A DNA stretch of 64,000 bases, from assembly GCF_964204865.1 (NCBI RefSeq), contig NC_135250.1, positions 4,092,001 to 4,156,000 on the forward strand, written 5' to 3'. The translations under genes were made by a program, and so were the position numbers. The DNA comes from Styela clava (taxonomy: Eukaryota > Chordata > Ascidiacea > Stolidobranchia > Styelidae). Shown here piece by piece: positions 23,378 through 64,000 of the stretch (its first letter is position 1; each line of letters opens with the position of its first letter). The notes beneath the pieces are model-generated. The model was not told the origin of the DNA, did not search any database, and saw only the letters and a program-made list of their open reading frames with translations.

Positions 23378-24003
23378 AGAGGCCGTGGTTCGCCATGTAT
23401 TTAAGCATTCTACTCGTTTTTCCTCTCCCATGGATAAATATGTAAATCCCAGGTTATATCAATGAATAAATACATAAATAACCGCACCTCTCTCGGCGAC
23501 TGGTTCATATTCTGTTCTGTAGATACGTTTTCTGCCTAATAGATATGCATTCACAATAAGCATATGCTCATAGTTGTATGCTTTCAGCGTACCATACTTC
23601 GAAACCCTTCCTCTCCCATGGATAAATATGTAAATCCCATGTTATATCAATGAATAAATACATAAATAACCGCACCCCTCTCGGCGACTGGTTCATATTC
23701 TGTTCTGTAGATACGTTTTCTGCCTAATAGATATGCATTCCCAATAAGCATATGCTCATAGTTGTATGCTTTCAGCGTACCATACTTCGAAACCCAAAAC
23801 CAAATATGTATTGAAGAATTACAGACCTCAATACGGCCAATTTCGCACCCGACTCGGCTGAAGCAAGGGATTTTGGCAGCGAGCAATGCGTTTTCTTAAT
23901 ATGCAACGAACCATTTAGCTGGACGACGTAAAAATGCAGGGAACAATACCAAAATGAGCAAATCTTTGCAAGTTTCCACTCATTGTATATATGCTCATTG
24001 TTC
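23378..24003 (-). repeat. Long dispersed repeat E, copy 2, with 188-bp tandem duplication
   Basis: The sequence from TCCTCTCCCATGGATAAATA at 23421 is repeated from 23609, a period of 188 bp, with few differences. The longer unit continues to about 24001 and is the inverted partner of 20054-20404. The left edge (23378-23452) matches the SINE 3' end (GGCCGTGGTTCGCCAT, GGATAAATATGTAAATCC). Confidence 0.8.
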
Positions 24004-25810: not shown

Positions 25811-28800
25811 TTACTCAAAACATTTATCAATCACTTCGTAAGAGTTGTTCGGCGATATTATATCTTGGTTCCTATGGGAAGCCTTCTGACGATTGTTCAG
25901 TTTATTAGCTGAGCTCGAAGATCCACGAAGTGCCTCTTCTACCATATCAGTTGTATAAGACTCGTATTGGGAAATCCACTCCTCCCCGTTTGCAGTTAGA
26001 TTTAGTATATCGCGACTCTCGGTGATATGTTCCGTCAGGGATTTTGAGAATCGTTGAGATCCGTTGGTCTCCAGCCCACAGCACGGCGATGTGTCATCAG
26101 CAGAGAAGTAACGTTTCTTCTGCATTTGTGAATAATTGAGTGAACCGTATAATACATTATCTTTAATCTCTGGGCCGTAATGACTGGATTCCACGTTCAA
26201 GTTACGATCATTCTCACTGGTAAGACTCTTGTTCGTTGTAACAGTAGCTGGATTTGGCATTGTAGGTTGCTTTACTAATTCAGAAGAACTGGCAACACTG
26301 ATTGGCTCGTACAGAATATCATCCATAATTTCGCCGTTTAATTTCTGATTTTGTACGCATATTGCGAGATTTTCTATTCCGATGTTTTTGATGTCTAGTT
26401 TCTTTTGATGACCTATTTTTTCTATGGATTGATTCGAACTTAGTGCCTTCCAGGATATGACGTCGTAGGCTTGGTTGACCGAACCATTTAATTCGTATTT
26501 GATTTGTTGTTTCCAAACCCCATCAATCTCACAGTAATTGTTTTGCTGGTCAGTATTCTTTTGATGATTCAATTTCTTTCCATCATATAAATGTTGTTGG
26601 CTTGATTTACCGTTGGCTTTGAGGGGCTTATCGTTGGCTCGAGCTTTATTTCTAAAAAATAATAAAATGTGGCGTTTGTTTTGATCTCGCTGACTATACT
26701 ATTTGTCTTTTAACGACACATTGGCTTAATTTGAAAGTTCTCCTTCGATTTGTGCTGCTTAAATTTACTCTGAGTCAACGTTTCAGCCAAGATGATTGGC
26801 AATTGTACCGGCGTTACTTCAAATAAAAGTGCATAAAACAAAAATGACTCGATTGTTAAAGCAATTGCCAAATGTTTAAAAAGTTTTGCACTTTTACTGC
26901 CTGATGAAAAGGTTTTTCATGCTCAGCTTTATTGTTTTGATTTTCCATTACACAACAATCCTAATTAGTTACCTTTTTATCATCAACAGTACTCCAATCA
27001 AAATTACAGTTGCTAAAAATGCCCAGCAGAATCCACCGACAGCAAGAGGAATAGCTAAGTTACAATCGCAGTTTTTGGAAGACGACTGAAGAGGTATCCT
27101 TGTTACAGGCTCTAGAAATGAACGATAATAGTATGGTATTTAGTATGGTGAGAAAATAAACTACTGATTACTGACTGATAATATATATATATATATTAAA
27201 AATGTTATCCATCAATTTATCGTTTTGGGGTCTTGAAATTTTCAGTCATTTTTCTTCACAAAAAATTAATTTGCGTGTTTTTTTATAATTGTACGTTATA
27301 AAGTATATTTTTGGTTTTATCTCCTTCAATCTTTGCTTCATTAAAATAATAGTCATTGTTAGTTCGCCATGTAGATTATTCTGTATCGGAATAATGCTTA
27401 AATTTCTATTCGCGTGATGAAGTACATCAAAGGTTTTACTTTGCCTCCGCTATGTAAGTCGACGAAAGGAATTTCCATAAATGGATCGTACATTTTAGAC
27501 ATTGTTTTTGACTGGTCGTAGACACGAAGTAGAGATATGGATCGCTTAAAAAAATGATTTCTCCCAATTTGTTGGACTATTTATCCATAAGAGACAGCCC
27601 CCTTAATTATTCAGGTGAAGACTCATTGTCTCTTGTCTGATTACCATCCAGTCTATCTAATTTAAAATACTCGGACAGAAGGAAAGCGGAAATCTCAGAT
27701 GGCTATTACTCGTATTCGCTTCAAGATTTTTGGTGTTTAACTGATCGTGATCTTAATTAAAGCAAGTCTGTCTCATTCACATTTGTTCATCGCAATACTC
27801 ACCAATTGGTTACTAAAAACGTAATCATTACCATCTGCCGTTGTTGTTTCTGTCAAAAATCCTTCGATGGTCGATGTTTCATTTGGAATCACAGTGGATA
27901 TTCCGATCGTTGCAGTGCTGGTTTCTGGTATGGTCGATACTGTTACGATACTCGTGGAAATATACGGAGATGTAGTCCGCGGAGAAGGTGTCGTGGGTTT
28001 TACTGTAATGAGATAGAAATCGTAAAACGAAACTTATACGTTGTAATACAAGTCAGATTGTAATTATGTGCATTATCCATATCAACACATAATTATGGCG
28101 GATCATATTGTTAAATTATGTGTGCTCAATATTTGAAGTGTTGCGTTAGTTCGCTTATACGCATATGGTGGAAGCTGAATTCGATGACCGTATGGTCGTA
28201 TCGCTCCATCCTGTCCATAGCAAAACAATTTTATTGCTATTCTATCCGATTAAAGAGTCCAGCTGCACACTAACACAAATGTATTTCTGTTTGCTTCATT
28301 GTTGTAAACTGCTTGTCTGTGGAAGTCTGACTCTGGTCAGACGAAACGTTACAGAAATACATTTGTTTTAGTGTGCAGCTGGACTCTTTAATTGGATAGA
28401 ATAGTCATGTGTATTCCAGCTACAGTATCCTTGCAGTATACGCATACGGATCCACTAGCATAAAGGCATAGAGAAAAGATAGGAAGTTAGTCTCGCGCAA
28501 CCCAACTCAAATTTAACTTTATTGCCGTTGCTATATTTTATTGATGATTGTATTTTTTGGTTGACGAAATAATAAAATCTTTTTCTCCTATACGATATCG
28601 AAACAATAGGAAAAACGACTAATGTTGAAAATGACGCTTTTTATTGCTGATAGCGAAACTGATAACTATACATAAGTCAATACATCACAGACGTTTTGCG
28701 GAAATAATTAGGAGTATGAATTGATACATTGAATCGCTGCTTTGTATGCTATCTGGCTGCAATAAAAAAGGGGGGTTTAGGACAGCTACATATAATGTTT

Positions 28801-31643
28801 ACAGTTCGAGACGCTTCACTATTCGATGACCTTTTGTTAATTATTTTCAACGCACGGCAGGCAACTGCTCCATTTTCCATCGCACGCCAAGATTTAGCTG
28901 AACAAAATAAAGATGTTTTGCGGGCGAGTTGCCCCGTGGCTAGCTTTTTGAAAATAGATAAGTTGACGTATAAGTTTCCATGACACATGCCAGAAACGTA
29001 ATCGGCGCAAATCTCTAACGGTAGGAAAATTATTTTATCTTTCTTTGATTCGCATTGATATTTTGTATAAGTATAACCATTAATGATGCCATATTAGGAA
29101 GTCACATTTTATTTTGTAAATGTTTAATACCCCATCCCTTGTCCTTTTCTGAGCATAAGTGATGCTGTTTTCATATTACCTGTGTTAATATCGTAGTAGT
29201 GATAAGTCATGTTGAATCCAATTGGAATAGGATTGTCTTCGCACTTTCCGTTCTCACTTTTGAAGACAACTTGGAAATCTCCTTCAGCTGTACATTTAAC
29301 GTTATCACTTTGACAAATGTAATGTTTGTAGTATATCAATACGAAGCCCGACTTTTGGTCCTTGCTTGCTTTAACTACAAAAAACAACAAACATATGGGG
29401 TAATGGATGTTTCACCAATTTCCTTGTTTATTTCCGTAATAATTACAAATCAGCAATAAGTTAACAATGACGTAACGATTGGAATTTATCCCGCTGCTCA
29501 GACACTTCTTTCGCTCAGACAAATATTCAGGGTGTGGCTTTTGGTAGTTTTGCATGTTGTTCGTCAGTTTTTCGATGTGTTTCCAGTAAGTAGTTGTAAA
29601 TCAAGTGTCTTTCGAGGGACTTTAGTTTAGTTATAATAGTCCAAAATTGATACCGCAAACGCTGCGGTAGACCAGCCTAAAATTAGCCATCAGTATCTAT
29701 AAGCGGCACGTGGTTAGGGCTGGGCATTTCGAATCGAATATTCGAATCGAATAGTAAATTATTCGAATCGGTTCAGAGCTAAATTTCGAATCGCCGCCAT
29801 CTTGTTTTTATCTTTCCGCTTAATGGTCGAGGTGAATTCCCCAATTTTTTTTTCATTGGAGTCATATTTTTTTAACGAAATTCTAACATATGACTATTTT
29901 CTGTAGTGAGTTATTGATAAAACGTGTTTGTTATTCTGTGTGAACGCTCAGTAATCTATCTGAGTGGTTTATTCTATGTTTTCAGTAATTCATTTGTTGA
30001 GAGGACCAATTACTATATTAAAGTCGCTTACGATTATATATTTTCAAGTATTCGAGATTCGATTCGATTCGAAAAAAATTATTCGATTCGATTCTGAAAT
30101 CACAAGGTATTCGAAAATGCCCAGCCCTACACGTGGTCTGTCATTGTTTTGAATAAAAACGATAGTTCTGAACATGTGAGACGGTTTGTAAGCGCTAACT
30201 CTCCAAAATACCCTCAAAATCAGCGTTGAAAATTTTGCAAAGATATAGTATAGGGAGAATCTTTCAGGGGTCAAGGGTTGGGCAAACGTCCATTTTTATT
30301 GATGCAATATCGTTGAAAAGATATTCATTTTTCCTGTGGAATGAGAGTTTCAAGACAAATACGCGTTGAGGTCTTCAATATGCTGGATGGAAACTAGAAA
30401 TCGCGGATGCCGTAAGACATAAGTAGTCAGTTCTATTTCTAAAAGACCACACAAAGCGGAGTGACACGATTGAAACTAACGAGACGGGTTGGTAGCACGA
30501 AAGTCATATTGGGGATGGTGAGATGCGTATCAAAATAGGAGTGGCAAAATACAGTCGATGTGTGTCGCAATCGCGATATAATTGATTGTCTTGAGAGGAC
30601 AGGCGAATTTTTTATTACTTACATCCTGGCAGAGTAAGAGTCGCAGACCGACACGGCAAGTTGATGAATGTGACATTTATTACTAAAATCTGATCGTCGT
30701 CAGAAGGTGAGAGGTATAGCGTACATTCCACACATTCCCCATACTTGCTGTGAGGGTAACCAGGCGATGCAAACCATCCATAATCCTCGGATTGGCCAAG
30801 CTGACAACTGTTGCTATAACCGCCGCATTTCTTACCTGAAATTATTAAAATGTTTTTTTTTTATCTGCGGAACCACCAGTTATGTTGTGTGGCAAAGGGT
30901 ATTTTGTGGGACCTCCTGAAGTATGCGCACCAAGATGGCGCACAACCTGAACTCGGGTTGTGTACCAGGTTAGGGTTCAGGTTATGCGATATCTTGGTGC
31001 GCATACTTCCATTCCATGGAGTACCATTTTGTGCATCCCAATCAAAACATAAAGTTAGTTCCAATGTCAAGGTTTTAAAACAGTATTTTAAAAGTTGCAT
31101 ATTAGAATTTTGGATGCCACTATTGGAACACCAGATTTAGAACTGTGGTACGGTTTTTAGTATAAATCTATTAAAAATATGCCAAACCGCCACTTGTTTT
31201 TGTAAACTGTGCGCAAATATATATATCAAAGTGGTTAGACTGAGAGTGATGCTGTTCGAATGTATATTTATGGACTAAATGTTGTTCAACCCTATTGTAT
31301 TAATAGAGTATGTAAATTCAATGTATAGTAAGTAGTCCTATTTTATAATAATGGACCTATTCCCTTGATAAATCGTTAGCCTGGAAATGGGGTATTTACT
31401 ACTTTTCATTTAACTTACATACTATTAATACAAAGAGGTAAAATAACATTGAAGTCCAAGTTACTTCTACATTCGCAAGTTCATGTATCTTACCCAATAA
31501 ATGGTAAACTAACCCCATACTCGAATGAACGAATATAAAAATCACATTTAGTATTTCCTCTATCATAACTTACCTTCGACACGGCATAGCAGCAAATGCA
31601 ACAAACAAACAACCAAATATGAATAGATGTTGCTTAGTCGCAT
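25811..31643 (-). CDS. CUB-domain type I membrane receptor with tyrosine-motif tail (6 exons)
   Basis: Reconstructed by splicing; no name recognised. Exons on the minus strand: 31574-31643, 30623-30835, 29180-29374, 27803-28002, 26973-27109, 25811-26651. All are GT-AG with matching phases (1,1,1,0,2), 1656 nt, 551 aa. Residues 1-23 are a signal peptide (YLVVCLLHLLLC). Residues 27 to about 140 are CUB-like: CGG, ASPGYP, Y then C58, a hydrophobic strand VINVTFINL, then GFVLIYY. About 160-225 is a Thr/Ser/Pro-rich stalk. Residues 244-270 are the membrane span (AIPLAVGGFCWAFLATVILI), then basic KRNKAR. The 280-residue tail has Y311 (YCEI), Y324 (YELN), Y334 (YDVI), Y386 (ILYEPI, ITIM form), Y440 (VLYGSL, ITIM form), Y445 (YSQM) and Y543 (YEVI). 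CUB domains bind proteins or glycans; tyrosine motifs suggest SH2-based signalling. Function is inferred only. The weakest call is that exons 2 and 3 form one CUB fold. Confidence 0.8.
28237..28404. mobile_element. Palindromic MITE, 168 bp, in receptor intron 3
   Basis: Arms of about 55 bp (28237-28292 and 28350-28404) are nearly perfect inverted copies sharing AAAGAGTCCAGCTGCACACT and AAATGTATTTCTGT. The short loop has GTCTGACTCTGGTCAGAC, itself a small hairpin. No target duplication assigned. Confidence 0.85.
28425..28585 (+). repeat. Dispersed repeat F, copy 2, with retroposon-like tail
   Basis: ATCCTTGCAGTATACGCATA, GGATCCACTAGCA and GGAAGTTAGTCTCGC match 7020-7115. The sequence then runs to TTTTGGTTGACGAAATAATA, a tail related to that at 22110. 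Confidence 0.6.
29715..30129. mobile_element. hAT-like MITE, TAGGGCTGGGC family, copy 2, perfect target duplication
   Basis: Ends TAGGGCTGGGC and GCCCAGCCCTA. Flanked on both sides by the identical 8-mer CACGTGGT (29707-29714 and 30130-30137). Subterminal ATTCGAATCG repeats at both ends. It lies in intron 2 of the CUB receptor. Confidence 0.95.
30908..31025. mobile_element. MITE family A, copy 3, shortened
   Basis: GGGACCTCCTGAAGTATGCG to CATACTTCCATTCCATGGAG. Core lost; the ends meet near TACCAGGTTAGGGTT. Substitutions such as ACCAAGATGGCGC are shared by both arms. It lies in receptor intron 1. Confidence 0.75.
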
Positions 31644-34191: not shown

Positions 34192-36311
34192 ATGTCGGTA
34201 TTGTGTAAAATTCCATTTCACTCAGCTAATGATATTGAACACGGGCGAGAAATGACGACGAAAAATGAAAATGAAGTCAATATTTGTCTCACGACAGGTA
34301 AGTGTTAGATATCAGTGGTTTTTTGTACATAACCTTGTTCAGAAAGAAAAACGTGAATGAGCGTTGCATATGAAACTGAAGACCACGAGCTGTGATCCTA
34401 CCGCGTTTCCCCGGAAATGAAACCTAGCCTAGAAAAGAGACCTAGCCTGAAAATAAGACCTAGCCTAAAAATATAACCTATTCTGAAAATAAGACCTAGC
34501 CTAAAAATATAACCTATTCTGAAAATTAGACCTAGCCTAAAAATATAACCTAGTCTGAAAATAAGACCTAGCCTAAAAATATAACCTATTCTGAAAATAA
34601 GACCTAGCCTAAAAATATAACCTAGTCTGAAAATAAGACTTAGCCTGAAAATAAGATCTAGCCTGAAAATAAATCATATATATGTTTCAAAAATGATTTT
34701 AATATAAGCCCTTCCCTAAAGATAAGACCTAGTCGATGACGCATTTTTTTTTAAATGAAAACATGTTACCTATAAGTAAATGAATACCGGTTTTCATATT
34801 TTGTATATTTGAAAATCTGGTAATTCTCTACTTTATAATTTTGTTTTTGATAAATGAAAATAAAATAAATCCCCCAAAATAAGCCCCAGTGTTGTTTTTC
34901 GAAAGAAAATTGAAATAAGACCCTGTATCATTTTCGGGGAAACACGGTAGCTTGTATAACGGCATAAATTTCGACGAAGACATCGATGTATTGAACTAAA
35001 TAATCATCCGCTTCTCATACCTTGTGTGGGTGGGTCCAAACAAGGTTCTGGAGATGACACAAAAGACGGGTTGTCCCATTATACGCATATATACTCCTGT
35101 GATTGAAAGTATGCCTATTTTACACACCTTTGGCTTTATTAGAATACAGCGTGCAGAATGATTTTTAATTAGAAAAGACTATTTAATCTACATATATATA
35201 TATATACTTGATATAACAGTATTTCACTGTAATGCGTAACATCGTGCGTGAGAATAGCGATAAATTTTTTAGAAGCCGTTCATTATGTTCTCCAGATTCA
35301 AATCAGGAACGAACGGATTCGAATAATGGTGGCTTCGGGCAAATCAACTACTTGATCGTGGGAGTTGGAGCGCCTGTGTTACTAATCGTCATTATTGCAG
35401 TTATTTATATTGTCATGCAACAACAAAGGTTAGTTATATGGATTGTGTTATATATATCAGGAGAGAGCGAAAAACTATGATGGTTCGACGGTTAGCGCAT
35501 CATACTAAGCGTTAGAAAAACATTTACCATTGCATCTCTGGCTACCCTGGTCGGGTTCGCAGGTTTAAAGAATAGGTATATATGTCTGAGGAGGTCGCTG
35601 GATCTTTTGTACAAAATCCTCGCCACTAATGCAAAAATGTGAGATTTGGGAAATTTTTAAAATAATAAAATAGTAATTATCAAGTTAGAGTTGGGGTCAG
35701 AAATAATTTGAATATCCTGCACAATCTGCATGCCTAGGCCTCGCGGGAACTGGATAATTGCTATTTTTTAAATTATTTTATGCGGTGGCAGGGGGTGTTT
35801 TTTATTGGCGGGACTTTGTTCAAAAGATCTGTTTTTTTTATTACGCGCCATGCAATGTAGCGGTGGCGTTTGATAGCCGTTCGATTGAGCCACCGGATTA
35901 AATATTTCTTGTCTTTTCCCCGAAATAAATGTGAAACTCGTATTATACGAAGTTGCCAGTGGCTTTGACACCTCTATTCCCGGTTCTCAACAAGGCACAA
36001 TAATCTTCTAACAATTCTAATTTAGTCTTCAATATCGTACGCGTCGAACAAGCCGTTTTCCTAAATTTACCCTTATATTGTCATAAATGATGGCTATGTT
36101 AAGGGGGAAGTGCAGGAATGCTTATTGATAATTAAAAATGAAAGTATTTCACAGGCGGCGACGGGCTGAGGCAACACCCGACGTTTCTTTCAAAACATGT
36201 AATACCAACGAAAGCGAAAATTCTGTATCGGCAATGCAGCGCGAGGAAGATTTAACCATCGGATGTGACGCCAAGAAGAATGATATTTGTGAGATGCAGA
36301 CAATTTGCTGA
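34192..36311 (+). CDS. Small single-pass membrane protein (3 exons, 5' end uncertain)
   Basis: No family recognised. Exons 34192-34297, 35296-35428 and 36155-36311 join in phase (1, then 2) to 396 nt, 131 aa. The second exon encodes a clear span at about residues 53-76 (NYLIVGVGAPVLLIVIIAVI), followed by QQQR and an RRRR cluster at the next exon. The tail ends DICEMQTIC-stop. There is no signal peptide at the first ATG. A good acceptor (CCATTTCACTCAG, ending 34225) in the first exon suggests that exon may instead begin at 34226, with more extracellular exons upstream that I did not find. Alternatively translation begins at the ATG at 35232. It is divergent from the CUB receptor, and like it has a separate TM exon ending in phase 2 inside an Arg codon. 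It may be a receptor remnant. Confidence 0.5.
34399..34949. mobile_element. MITE with CCGTGTTTCCCC ends and internal tandem array
   Basis: Left TACCGCGTTTCCCCGGAAAT, right ATTTTCGGGGAAACACGGTA are inverted ends of a widespread eukaryotic DNA-transposon type (ACCGTGTTTCCCCGAAAATA). It sits in intron 1 of the small membrane-protein gene. Confidence 0.85.
34423..34675. repeat. 18/36-bp higher-order tandem array
   Basis: Two 18-bp variants, GAAAATAAGACCTAGCCT and AAAAATATAACCTATTCT, alternate to give a 36-bp higher unit repeated about five times, ending in two plain 18-mers. The unit derives from the AAAATAAGAC subterminal motif of the host MITE. Confidence 0.93.
35482..35600 (+). mobile_element. 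tRNA-derived SINE, 5' head only
   Basis: GTTCGACGGTTAGCGCATCA (A-box region), TACTAAGCGTTAG, and GGGTTCGCAGGTTTAAAG (decayed B box) followed by GAGGAGGTCGCTGGATC, matching the head of the copy at 47342. It is truncated at about 35600. Confidence 0.7.
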
Positions 36312-36664: not shown

Positions 36665-37039
36665 CTATATAAAGCCTTTAGTTATTTCAAAAGTTATTTC
36701 GTGGTATTTTCGGTTTTTGGTTTTGTAATGTCGCTTAAAATTATATTCTTTCGTGACGGATAGTACTTGAAAACACACCAAACACTGTGGTTTAACGTTG
36801 TTGTGGGTAAGGAAATACGTTTCCTCTCGGTTTGCTTTGGTCACCTTTTTTCTACACTCATTGTATGATGAATTGTTATATTTGAAAAAAATTATTACTT
36901 GTAGCGCGAGCAGGCCTATAGTGCTACCGTCAAAAAACAACCAAGTCCGTCCAAGTTGGGACTTCAGACCCAGATAATAAAAAAATGCATCACACTGCTG
37001 CGGTTTGTCACTGCTGTCACGCGACCAACGCTTGAACAT
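36665..37039 (-). pseudogene. hAT transposase fragment with BED-type zinc finger
   Basis: A 124-codon minus-strand frame. Its last 65 residues match the N-terminus of Charlie/ZBED-like hAT transposases: NREETYFLTHNNVKPQCLVC, then SVTKEYNFKRHY and a TKN in place of the usual TKH. The finger Cys pair (CLVC) is present. The second half is altered (KNRKYHE), and no catalytic RNase H-like part follows. The first 55 residues are unrelated. It belongs with the hAT end at 37606. Confidence 0.65.
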
Positions 37040-37539
37040 AGAGGAGTGTTTCGACTAAAATAAAGGCAAAAAACGTCTCTTTAAATAGGGAGTTACTTGA
37101 TGCTAGCTCATCTCATGGGCTTGTTCCTGTCTGCACAAGACGATTCATTCTTCTTTTACCGATCACAGGACAGCCTTTTACTGAATCACTTTTATGTGTT
37201 TACTCTGGTCGCGTACCACCGATAAAACTTCTTTTTGGGTTTGGGCCAAAGACAATTGAAACGCGCTATGGGAGTATTTTAACATAGCACAACATCCATT
37301 TTATACCTTCGTGCAAACTTGCAACGTATTACTTTTATGTAGTAAGAACGTATTAATTGCGTGCAAAATCGCGAAAGCATTTGCGTCTTCTGTCGTCAGA
37401 GCTAAAAGGCTTTAATCATCGTTTCGTTTTAGGTGGGAAGTAGCGGTCGAGGGCAATCTCAAGACAGCGAATACACGGTATGGAAGATATATAAAGCGTT
37501 GTCGCAATATTTTAGTCAACTCAAAAATTAATTGTTAGG

Positions 37540-59825: not shown

Positions 59826-62800
59826 TCATATCCAATGTGAACCTGAAAACAGAATCAAAATTGAGTTTGACAATACGCTTTTAAATTATATGTAGAAATA
59901 TTGTAAAATCAATTTTATTTAAAATAACAAGACCACCAAACCAAGCGTTTAGGACCTCATAAAATTTGCTTAAAACTGTAAAAAAATAGGTGTATATAAA
60001 TTTGGGTCTCACCTATTTGATCATATCCTTCCCTGATATTTTGCATTTTGAGAAGAACGTTCAGATAAGTACCATTCTCTCTCGAATCTGACTCAACTCC
60101 AGAATTTAAAATCCTGTTCAAGATCACCAAACAATCTTTTTTTGATTCACCAAGCTCATCAAAACGGTTGCATATAATATCATAACAATGGTGGAGGAGA
60201 TCCATCATTTGTGAGTCAATTTTGTCAAATGCTACCCAAGTTTGCACCCATTTTAAAACCCTTATAAAATGTTTTTCAGACCAGTTTCTGTCATCAATAC
60301 ACACTTTTAGAGCTTTTCCAAAAACCCATTTTGCGCATCTGAGCCATAATTCAGAATCTCGGTCCTTAATTTCTTCAACTTTGTAAAATTGAGGTGTCCA
60401 AAACATTAAAATATTGACAAGATGAATAATAATATCATTGGATTCAAAATTTGTCTCCAATTCTGTAATGGCGCGCAAAACTTTGACGTCTTCTTTTTGC
60501 AAGTCGCAGGAATCTTCTAACGTCTGTTGCTGGTCCTTGTTCCTTAAAATCGAATTTTTTCTTCTCTCAGATAAATTTGATAAGCAAGACTCGAGAACAG
60601 ATAATGTATCTGTGAAAAAAGTAGACATTTCCGAGTACAAAGTATCATTTGAAGCATGTTCAATCATGCTGAACATGTTACCTAGCAACGATATTGAAAG
60701 AGTTATCAGCTGCTTCACAACTCTGAACGGGGCAAGAGCTGCTCTTTTTTCTATTATTGGAAGGGTTTTGTCTTCTTCAGGTATGTCTTGAGTACATGCA
60801 ACAACTTGGTCCATCTTTTCACTTGCGATAAATTCATTCACATTTAAGGTTTTCCAAATCATGCAAAGTACTCTAACAACATGAGTAGTATTTTCTTGTC
60901 GTTTGCCTGGGTCACCCAAGCATGGGTATGTTTTTATAACTCCGAAATTTGCAGAGGCTTGTTGTTTGGTGGCAGTAGTGAGCCAACTTATGAGTCCGTT
61001 ATTTCTTATAAGATCATTTGCCACGCTTCGGATTGTGCAAGCTTGCTCGAATATTTGAAAAATTTGTCGACGAACGTAATTGTCACTCACTGGTGAATCA
61101 TGCAAGCACATGAGAAGTTGAAACACGTTTTTCTTTTTTATAATATGATAATCACCCATATCTCGTATGCCTTCAATTACTAGGTTCAAAATCCAGGTTC
61201 TTTCTGTTTTACTCTCCATTTCAGCACTGAAGAACAAGACGTAAAACTCAGGAACATTTTTCAAATCGAGTTGTGGTTTAATCAAAATGAACCGATGCAA
61301 TACTGAAAACATATGATTGTCAGGAGTTTGATGTAGCCTCACAACAGTCGAAAGAAAGTTCGCTACGACTGATGATAGTCTAGGAATAGCATCAATGTCG
61401 CCATCTGTTTTAATTTCCATTCCATTTCGAACGCAACGAATCAAATATAGGGTTAAATTTTTCTCTGGAAACCACGCTGTTATAGCATGTTGATAATATA
61501 ATGACAGACAAGAGGCTGCTAGTGAACGTACCATCGGACAATGACTAGCAAGACAACACATTAAAAATGACAAAGCGCCACTCCTGACGAACATTTTGCA
61601 GTCCAATAGATTCTCAGGACCAAGGAGATCTAGTAAAGCCGGAAGCAAAAAACTGGGATCGTAGACGTTTTGTGTTGATTCTTGAGTTTCGTAAATTTTA
61701 TTTTCTGAAGTTGAAATAGTAACCTTGGGATCATTTTCAAAATAATCCACATTTTTGACATCAGAAGAGATGTTCAACATGCGCCTTCGAAGCGGAAATC
61801 TTGCATAAGTAGCCTCCATGATATCATTATCCAAGCAAGTTAATATATCACTTGGACTTGGTTTTTTCCATAATGTATCACCAAGATTGCGTCTCGCACG
61901 GTATGACGAAAGTGCAGCTTTTCCCCACAGAAACGGCTTATATTCAGACAAACTGACACCTTTCTGCTCAAACAGCAAAATAATCATCAAAATTGTTTGA
62001 TCAGTCTGAGTTAAAGTACATCCATAGGCACCGAATAAAAATCCAAGATCTTTGTCTGAAAGATCATTACGATCGCAGCGTACACACAATTCAAATAACA
62101 ATTGTAGAACAACTAACTTAAGATTTACTTTATCATCTTTCATCTGTACTGAGTCCGCGTCCTCTTCAAGAATTATTGCAAAAAATTTGGAATGATTCGT
62201 CAACATATATTTAAATGTTGGAATATCTGTGATGTTGTTTACAGTCACATATTCCTGTATTTTTCCATCGTCGGCGTAAAACACTTTCACAAAATGTAAA
62301 AGACATTTTAAAGCAGTTGCATTTTCAAAATGATGTTTTAACGTCTGTTTTAAAAATTTATCCCATATCGATGATAATTTATCACAAATAGTAGGATACT
62401 CTTCTACATCTAAATTCTGTATCTTTTGCAGCAGTGTTTCAAATCCTCTATCCGTCTCGCTTTGGGATTTGGGTTGTGATACAATATGATGCACACATAG
62501 AAGAATTTCCGAAGCATGGATCGTATATAGCTTTGGCTTTGAGATAACCTTCTGAAGCAATTGCCCAATGGATAACACAATGTCCAAATTTATATTAGTT
62601 GTATTTTCCAGATTCAAGATAGAATCTAACAGAGGCTTATATAAGTTTTCTTCACCCAAAGCTGTCGCGATTGTAAATATATGTTCCATAAATTGTTTTC
62701 CCATTTTAGTTGATATTACGTCACCAAACCTTTGAGAAAATTCTTCAATTGGTACAAATATTAACGATTTATAGGAATTTAAAATCTCTGCACATTTCAT

Positions 62801-64000
62801 TTTTAAAAACTCATCATTATTTGGTACCAATGTTGATAAAACTTGATTTATAACTGGAATTAATGAAAGTTTCTTTTCTTCATTCAATTTCGACAAATTT
62901 GTTTCTTTACACCAGTGCATGAGAAGCTTTGGGTTATATTGTATTAATTTTGTCATCAAATCCACAGTTTCTAAATCCAGATTCTTTATACATAAATTGA
63001 TGACATCAGCAGATCCACATAAAGCAAAACGTGGATGATATTCCAATAATTGAACAAACAACTCAATTATCCTTGATTTATCTTTGAGATATTTTGACGT
63101 TAAAAATTCAAAAAGCTCTTTTACAGACTCTTGCGAACAGTTTATTTTGTTTTTATCTGCTAATATGCCTTGCAAACACTGACAAATCACTGTGGAAAAC
63201 ACTCTCACATTTGACTTCGAGTTCAAATTTTGCAACAATTTTGAAACTTCAGCTAAAATTTTACACAAATGCGACGCTGAAATAACTGGCTGTAAAGTTG
63301 TGAACGATTCCAATATTAGGTATTCTGGATCCTTTTTCAACTTCGTTAAAGAGAGCTCCTTTAGGAGAATAACAATCAATTTACAAATCTTCGAAATGTA
63401 AAAATTAACGGAAGTTGAATCAGCTTTTACGAAAAGATCATGGTAATTTTTTATCGCATCACATGTGACTGAGGTACATATTTGTTGCAGTGATAAATCC
63501 TTTTTCATCAAGTTTTCAAAATCAATTCTTGTATAATCAAAATCGCATTTTGATAGGTAAATATTATCAAAAAACAGATTTTTTATGCTTGAGCAATCAA
63601 GGAATAGTTTCCATAGAAACAATTTTTCCGGTTGATTAATCATACTCTTTGAAGGACAATCTACTTCCATGCTATTATTTGAAAAACCAGTCTTGGTTAT
63701 ATTAACTTGATTCTCTCTGTAGAATTCTGATGCCTCTCTGAGTAAGAACAGGATACTGTATAGAATTTCTTTCATCGAATTTGTTGGTAGTGTACAGCCT
63801 TCCTTTTCAAAGCCACATAAAGTGTCAAAATAAAGTAAAAGCTGTTGAACTAAACACTTAAATTGATATATTTCAACTTCAGGAACATAATTTCCTGATT
63901 CCTGTATTTCTGAAACCCATGACTTAATTTTTTCCAACAATTTCAATTTCTTGAGATTTTTCTTGATTTTGTAACTTTGCCAAAACCAGCCTTGTACAAA
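59826..64000 (-). CDS. URB1: URB1 / NPA1, nucleolar pre-ribosomal-associated protein 1 (partial, 5' end outside window)
   Basis: Open frame from 64000 to a donor at 60012 (CAAATAG|GTGAG), about 1,329 residues in one exon. The frame stays open to the window edge, and no ATG sets its start (the first residue of the longest stop-to-start call is TTG), so the N-terminus lies beyond. URB1 is an alpha-helical repeat protein needed for early 60S assembly in the nucleolus. Evidence: YDPSFLLPALLDLLGPENLL, then FVRSGALSFLMCCLASHCPM, then VLHRFILIKPQLDLKNVPEF, and ERTWILNLVIEGIRDMGDY, all in vertebrate URB1 order. The end is uncertain: with the acceptor at 59843 the phase gives QIGSHWI and a stop at 59826. 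A longer open frame beginning VHIGYEEMHVIRPHSNHRRT is in another phase. Human URB1 is about 2,270 aa, so roughly 900 residues are missing here. Confidence 0.9.

Follow-up and report, generated by a model that had tools for sequence, protein, structure and literature searches.

The gene described here, from the ascidian Styela clava, is predicted to encode a type I receptor, apparently single-copy, in which one diverged CUB domain is carried on a Thr/Ser-rich stalk. Among the readings considered, the one tentatively preferred is that it works like CDCP1, namely as a CUB-headed protein whose cytoplasmic tyrosines, once phosphorylated, would dock SH2 proteins.

Results and Discussion

Gene structure and coding potential

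The gene model comprises six exons on the minus strand of the window (the whole stretch of 64,000 nucleotides that was analysed), and their in-frame splicing yields a protein of 542 amino acids, with GT and AG at every junction, introns 1–4 in phase 1 and intron 5 in phase 2 (Table 1). In line with an earlier note on this DNA, the product is predicted to consist of a signal peptide, a head, which is rich in cysteines, a Thr/Ser stalk, one membrane span and a tail of 280 residues. The 551-residue form given in that note was also reproduced, by use of the alternative end of exon 4 and the alternative start of exon 5; the two forms are nine stalk residues apart, and motif positions in the longer one equal those in the 542-residue form plus 9. 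The stretch VVCLLHLLLC, as read by eye, would form the hydrophobic core of the signal peptide, and eight cysteines are found within residues 27–139 of the head. A Pfam search over the whole protein returned no domain above the cut-off, kinase included, in agreement with the earlier statement that the receptor has no kinase domain, and signalling via recruitment of SH2 proteins is therefore a natural inference. The tail matched no solved structure.

Exon 6 is coding sequence above chance. About 280 of its codons are open without interruption, more than in the longest run (196) of 30 Markov-simulated 64-kb windows, and its model frame is the only one with a positive codon score (+10.2 bits, the other five frames ranging from -19.5 to -42.4). 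Codon use does not decide the coding status of exons 1–5, which are short: the model frame ranks first of the six in exons 2 and 3 but not in the other three, and exon 4 also has an open reverse-strand frame that outscores it (+3.5 versus -6.3).

Table 1. Predicted exons, membrane span and tail tyrosine motifs of the receptor gene (window positions; residues in 542-residue numbering).
Feature	Position	Strand	Description and basis
Exon 1	31574..31643	minus	Start codon (ATG at 31643) and signal peptide, residues 1-24; donor GTAAGT
Exon 2	30623..30835	minus	First half of diverged CUB-like domain; profile scores and neuropilin-1 match
Exon 3	29180..29374	minus	Presumed second half of CUB-like domain; terminates GDFQVVFKS...GFNMTY
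Exon 4	27832..28002	minus	Stalk, Thr/Ser-rich; alternative end 27803 (donor GTGAGT)
Exon 5	26973..27111	minus	End of stalk and transmembrane span; alternative start 27109 (acceptor two bases on)
Predicted single transmembrane span	26978..27052	minus	About residues 237-261; Kyte-Doolittle mean up to 2.54 over 19 residues
Exon 6	25811..26651	minus	Cytoplasmic tail of 280 residues, 12 tyrosines, stop codon
YCEI (Y302)	26525..26536	minus	Tail sequence
YELN (Y315)	26486..26497	minus	Tail sequence
YDVI (Y325)	26456..26467	minus	Tail sequence
ILYEPI, ITIM-like (Y377)	26300..26317	minus	Tail sequence
VLYGSLNYSQM, ITIM-like Y431 and YxxM Y436 (YSQM)	26123..26155	minus	Tail sequence
YEVI (Y534)	25829..25840	minus	Tail sequence

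The head as a probable diverged CUB domain

The head is probably a diverged CUB domain without the YD-containing calcium site, as judged from profile comparisons. Pfam CUB (PF00431) gave no match to it at E values up to 1 or 10, and exon 2 is absent from the 150 CUB matches of the S. clava genome (150 of 350 candidates were scored). At E values under 0.1, Pfam lists one model for the head, PF22962, which is an Ig-like nucleoporin model that covers part of the second half and stays below its cut-off (E 0.045 and 0.018). Against the solved structures, the best phmmer match of the head was neuropilin-1 (E 0.015), with only about 40 residues aligned, in the SPGYP..Y stretch; the heads of neuropilins are built of several domains, and their tails are short.

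Two CUB profiles were used for scoring. The first, of eight rows taken from solved structures (cubilin, procollagen C-endopeptidase enhancer 1 and neuropilin-2), scored the ectodomain at 17.1 bits and exon 2 by itself at 18.2 bits, and neither score was reached by any of 1000 shuffles. With the second, composed of 20 hand-picked first halves among the CUB matches of the same genome, exon 2 scored 23.2 bits, a value attained by 0 of 2000 shuffles. By these scores, exon 2 carries the N-terminal CUB signature G.(f)xSPxYPxxYxxxxxC together with a hydrophobic strand. Exon 3 alone, at 0.7 bits against the eight-row profile, a score that 267 of 1000 shuffles reached, has no local HMM signal. The CUB-like ectodomain of the earlier note is upheld for the first half; for the second half the local search is silent.

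Glocal fitting gave z scores of 6.6 for the whole domain and 7.5 for the first half (0/300 shuffles each); the fits of the second half (z 4.2, 1/300) and of the last third, GDFQVVFKS...GFNMTY (z 3.2, 2/300), were weak. In the whole-domain fit the domain is over by GFVLIY, near the beginning of exon 3, at odds with the last-third fit ending at GFNMTY. The C-terminal CUB pattern looked for was C..(Y)D, L/V-x-F-x-S-D, GF..xY; the YD after the third cysteine, part of the calcium site in many CUBs, is missing in the head. A structure prediction of exon 2 alone had a mean pLDDT of 41.1, too low to use.

The S. clava genome contains at least 150 CUB matches that pass the cut-off (150 of 350 candidates were scored), and about thirty of them span roughly profile positions 1–62 only. 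The point at which the head is split resembles that of these split CUB exons, but the intron phase here is 1. Among the 20 split CUB exons used for the second profile, a candidate donor in phase 0 was seen in 18 and one in phase 1 in 10, going by the unverified GT[AG] pattern alone, so the intron position does not clinch CUB homology.

Two dense clusters were noticed among the CUB matches of the genome, G000:C19:9355475-9389392 and G000:C3:15714168-15809810 (L003, L005, L007-L013, L015, L018-L024, L027, L029-L031). They differ in kind, one having several CUBs per long frame (mostly 619–898 aa) and the other single-CUB exons (frames of 145–161 aa).

An extra sushi module in intron 3 was considered and rejected. 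The sushi-like C-terminal end concerned, LACDGKWSSCLPCV (28849-28890, minus strand), lies behind an in-frame stop, has no Pfam match, and its acceptor phase, read by hand, does not fit; it is possibly a relic exon, or chance. The same intron holds a 54-nt inverted repeat of 96% identity with arms 60 nt apart (28237-28404), which resembles a small hairpin transposable element.

Tyrosine motifs of the tail

All seven tyrosine motifs listed for the tail in the earlier note were found (Table 1), and no ITAM site is present. Two of the sites, ILYEPI and VLYGSL, with tyrosines 54 residues apart, fit the ITIM consensus [SIVL]-x-Y-x-x-[ILV]. Chance levels were taken from 20,000 shuffles of the tail and from a second background, the 88 tyrosines of four neighbouring non-receptor open frames. 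The two ITIMs do not stand out by either measure: 0.62 were expected on shuffled tails (P 0.12), and 2/12 tail tyrosines compare with 6/88 in the neighbours (P 0.20–0.25), in which 14 of 88 overlapping 280-aa stretches contained two or more. The ITIM count is near chance, and the label carries little weight.

The count of Y-x-x-[ILVM] (Y-x-x-Phi) is marginal, with six sites seen against 2.3 expected on shuffled tails (P 0.015) but a share close to that of the neighbours (6/12 versus 31/88). The single YxxM lies within expectation (P 0.16 on shuffled tails; 1/12 versus 4/88 neighbour tyrosines, P 0.43–0.48). Y-x-x-I occurs at four of the 12 tail tyrosines and at 9/88 in the neighbours (P 0.028–0.048). 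The narrower pattern Y-[DE]-x-I, which was picked post hoc and whose P values are uncorrected, occurs at 3/12 versus 2/88 (Fisher P 0.012, binomial P 0.002). This set looks enriched and is a better lead than the ITIMs, though chosen after looking. Y-[DE]-x-I is near the preference of the Src SH2 domain (pYEEI-like), and YxxM is that of p85.

A further reading, an unlikely one, takes the membrane protein as genuine but its tyrosine motifs as background within a disordered tail. The foldability index falls below zero in 167 of the 230 tail windows, as would suit disorder, and both the ITIMs and the Y-x-x-Phi sites (6/12 versus 31/88, P 0.22–0.25) are close to the neighbour frequencies. The excess of Y-x-x-I speaks against such a reading, as does the number of Y-x-x-Phi sites in the tail as a whole, since none of the 88 neighbouring 280-aa stretches reaches six and few shuffled tails do.

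Y-x-x-Phi is also the consensus of an adaptor-sorting signal, and many animal proteins with CUB domains have functions other than that of an immune receptor. The protein might accordingly be a receptor for adhesion, endocytosis or scavenging, with a CUB head, in which the six Y-x-x-Phi sites serve mostly as trafficking signals, bound by the clathrin adaptor mu subunit, rather than as SH2 docks. This is a possibility of some substance, though a doubtful one: three of the sites have an acidic residue at +1 and isoleucine at +3, which by the preferences given above suits SH2 docking better, and 280 residues would be long for a sorting tail.

Candidate SH2 partners

The S. clava genome gave 50 SH2 exon matches. 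At one locus (L082), SH2, SH2 and tyrosine-phosphatase pieces succeed one another along the same strand, all within 10 kb, the layout of an SHP, the exons not being joined. At another (L058), an intronless open frame of 600 aa, truncated where the locus ends, encodes SH2-SH2-tyrosine-kinase; because the only match of this frame in the PDB at E up to 1e-100 is one chain, named EGFR, over the kinase part, just a Syk-type layout is claimed. A further SH2 pair, on contig C9 (L083), was rejected as a phosphatase, its SH2 pieces standing alone on the scanned strand. Genes with SHP-type and Syk-type layouts, the kind of partner that such a tail would call for, thus exist in the genome, which says nothing on their use by this receptor. 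The earlier proposal of signalling via SH2 recruitment is natural for a receptor in which no kinase was found; that its ITIMs stand out is not supported.

Copy number and genomic surroundings

The receptor gene is apparently single-copy, as far as similarity searches can tell. When the genome (376.6 Mb in 379 contigs) was searched, the 5 candidates scored for exon 2 at E up to 0.001 gave no match but exon 2 itself, and the 1 candidate scored for the tail at E up to 1 was the tail itself. This counts against an expanded family, although strongly diverged copies could escape such searches. A tandem cluster of receptors was likewise rejected: tblastn of five protein parts against the window gave nothing below E 0.05 beyond the gene itself, and Pfam scans of the near flanks yielded just a weak zinc-finger fragment. 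In these scans (17.0–25.8 kb on both strands, 31.6–39.1 kb on the plus and 31.6–40.0 kb on the minus strand, E up to 0.05) no Ig, sushi or CUB match was found. The self/non-self or haemocyte role suggested in the earlier note gains no support from a gene whose exon 2 and tail have no relatives in these searches and whose flanks contain none of the three domains.

The nearby genes look housekeeping, encoding a TFIIIC subunit, ribosomal L1, an RWD-IBR (RNF14-like) ligase and a NopRA1/URB1-like protein; a flotillin-like piece scores below the cut-off. The NopRA1/URB1-like open frame, of 1347 aa (59957-64000, minus strand), runs off the window end and is intronless where visible, and those of the TFIIIC subunit and the RWD-IBR ligase are likewise long single frames. 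The zinc-finger fragment, of the Spin-doc type (36665-37054, minus strand), is below the family cut-off and may be a transposon relic. Two repeats were also noticed, a 36-bp unit in 7.2 tandem copies (34415-34672) and a 188-bp unit present twice at 98% matching (23420-23795), the latter probably a recent duplication.

Comparison with known receptors

CDCP1 has several CUB domains, for which Pfam holds separate CDCP1 CUB models, whereas the receptor described here has one CUB-like domain on a Thr/Ser stalk. Those models (PF23665, PF23668) gave no match to the head; a typed CUB consensus reaches both weakly, below the cut-off. According to PMC4395315, Src kinases phosphorylate the CUB receptor CDCP1, and SHP2 binds directly to its YAVI and YGHL sites; the authors suggest that these SHP2-binding sites may compete with Src kinases. 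The likeness lies in a transmembrane protein with a CUB head and tail tyrosines in a YxxI/L context, the docking of Src-family kinases and SHP2 being that of CDCP1 (PMC4395315); here such motifs are present in the tail and their docking is predicted. The CDCP1 tail has five tyrosines (PMC4395315), whereas that of the receptor has 12, one of them in a YxxM. DCBLD1 and DCBLD2 are CUB-containing transmembrane scaffolds whose tails dock SH2 adaptors after phosphorylation by Src/Abl; they differ in having a discoidin-CUB-LCCL head and YxxP motifs for CRK/CRKL (PMC6029619), and YxxP does not occur among the seven motifs listed here. The pairing of a CUB head with a tail of this sort, regarded as unusual in the earlier note, consequently has precedents in CDCP1 (PMC4395315) and DCBLD1/2 (PMC6029619).

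The fester co-receptors (FcoR) of Botryllus are type I proteins of 520–610 aa with tails that can carry ITIM, hemITAM and Y-x-x-I/L/V core motifs, and, according to PMC12065747, they form a family of 53 loci with polymorphic haplotypes and a head of IgV, sushi and two Ig-C2 domains. The receptor shares with them the type I topology, the long tail, a similar length (542–551 aa), two matches to the ITIM consensus and several Y-x-x-[ILV] core motifs (PMC12065747). Together with the SHP layout found in the genome, these likenesses suit a true inhibitory immunoreceptor, with another head, whose two ITIMs would recruit an SHP-type phosphatase and silence haemocyte or allorecognition signalling in the FcoR manner. 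Such a role is nevertheless improbable, given an ITIM count near chance, a single CUB-like head with no Ig or sushi above the Pfam cut-off, scanned flanks with neither of these nor CUB, and the finding of no second copy, where the FcoRs have 53 loci (PMC12065747). Among the invertebrate chordates, an ITIM-type tail is also described for amphioxus BbLcLRR, which has a non-Ig head but differs in that this head is leucine-rich-repeat; its ITIM or ITIM-like tyrosines are phosphorylated by Lck, and SHIP1, and less so SHP1/2, associated with it in Jurkat cells (PMC8211107).

By the features compared, the receptor would be a member of neither CDCP1 nor FcoR, and its predicted layout is a new combination within a known kind. 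In the library searched, no paper was found joining CUB domain, ITIM and ascidian, nor one joining CUB domain, transmembrane, tunicate and immunoreceptor; among papers on the CUB domain with ITIM, none is about a CUB-ITIM receptor, as judged by title and the start of the abstract. As it stands, the receptor gene is plausible but ordinary-looking.

Proposed mode of action and its significance

In the tentatively preferred CDCP1-like reading, binding of a ligand to the head, or clustering, would lead to phosphorylation of the tail by a Src-family kinase. The Y-[DE]-x-I sites (Y325, Y377 and Y534) would then tether the Src-family kinase via its SH2 domain; an SHP-type phosphatase could dock at the LYxx[IL] sites (Y377 and Y431), and the p85 subunit of PI3-kinase at Y436 (YSQM). 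As its output, the receptor would modulate Src/SHP/PI3K signalling, in an activating or an inhibitory sense depending on context, and would not be a dedicated ITIM off-switch.

It is quite improbable that the gene encodes a lineage-specific immune or self-sensing receptor of an invertebrate chordate, in which a CUB head and a combined ITIM, Src-SH2 and PI3K tail evolved independently of CDCP1; were this so, the ITIM/SHP circuit would have been attached to new heads repeatedly.

Should SHP and Src proteins dock at the tail sites, as the CDCP1-like reading predicts, S. clava would offer a receptor of this type with a single minimal CUB head, encoded by apparently one gene and hence simple to knock down. 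Such a receptor would also help to decide whether phosphotyrosine scaffolds with a CUB head are of ancient origin or evolved more than once.
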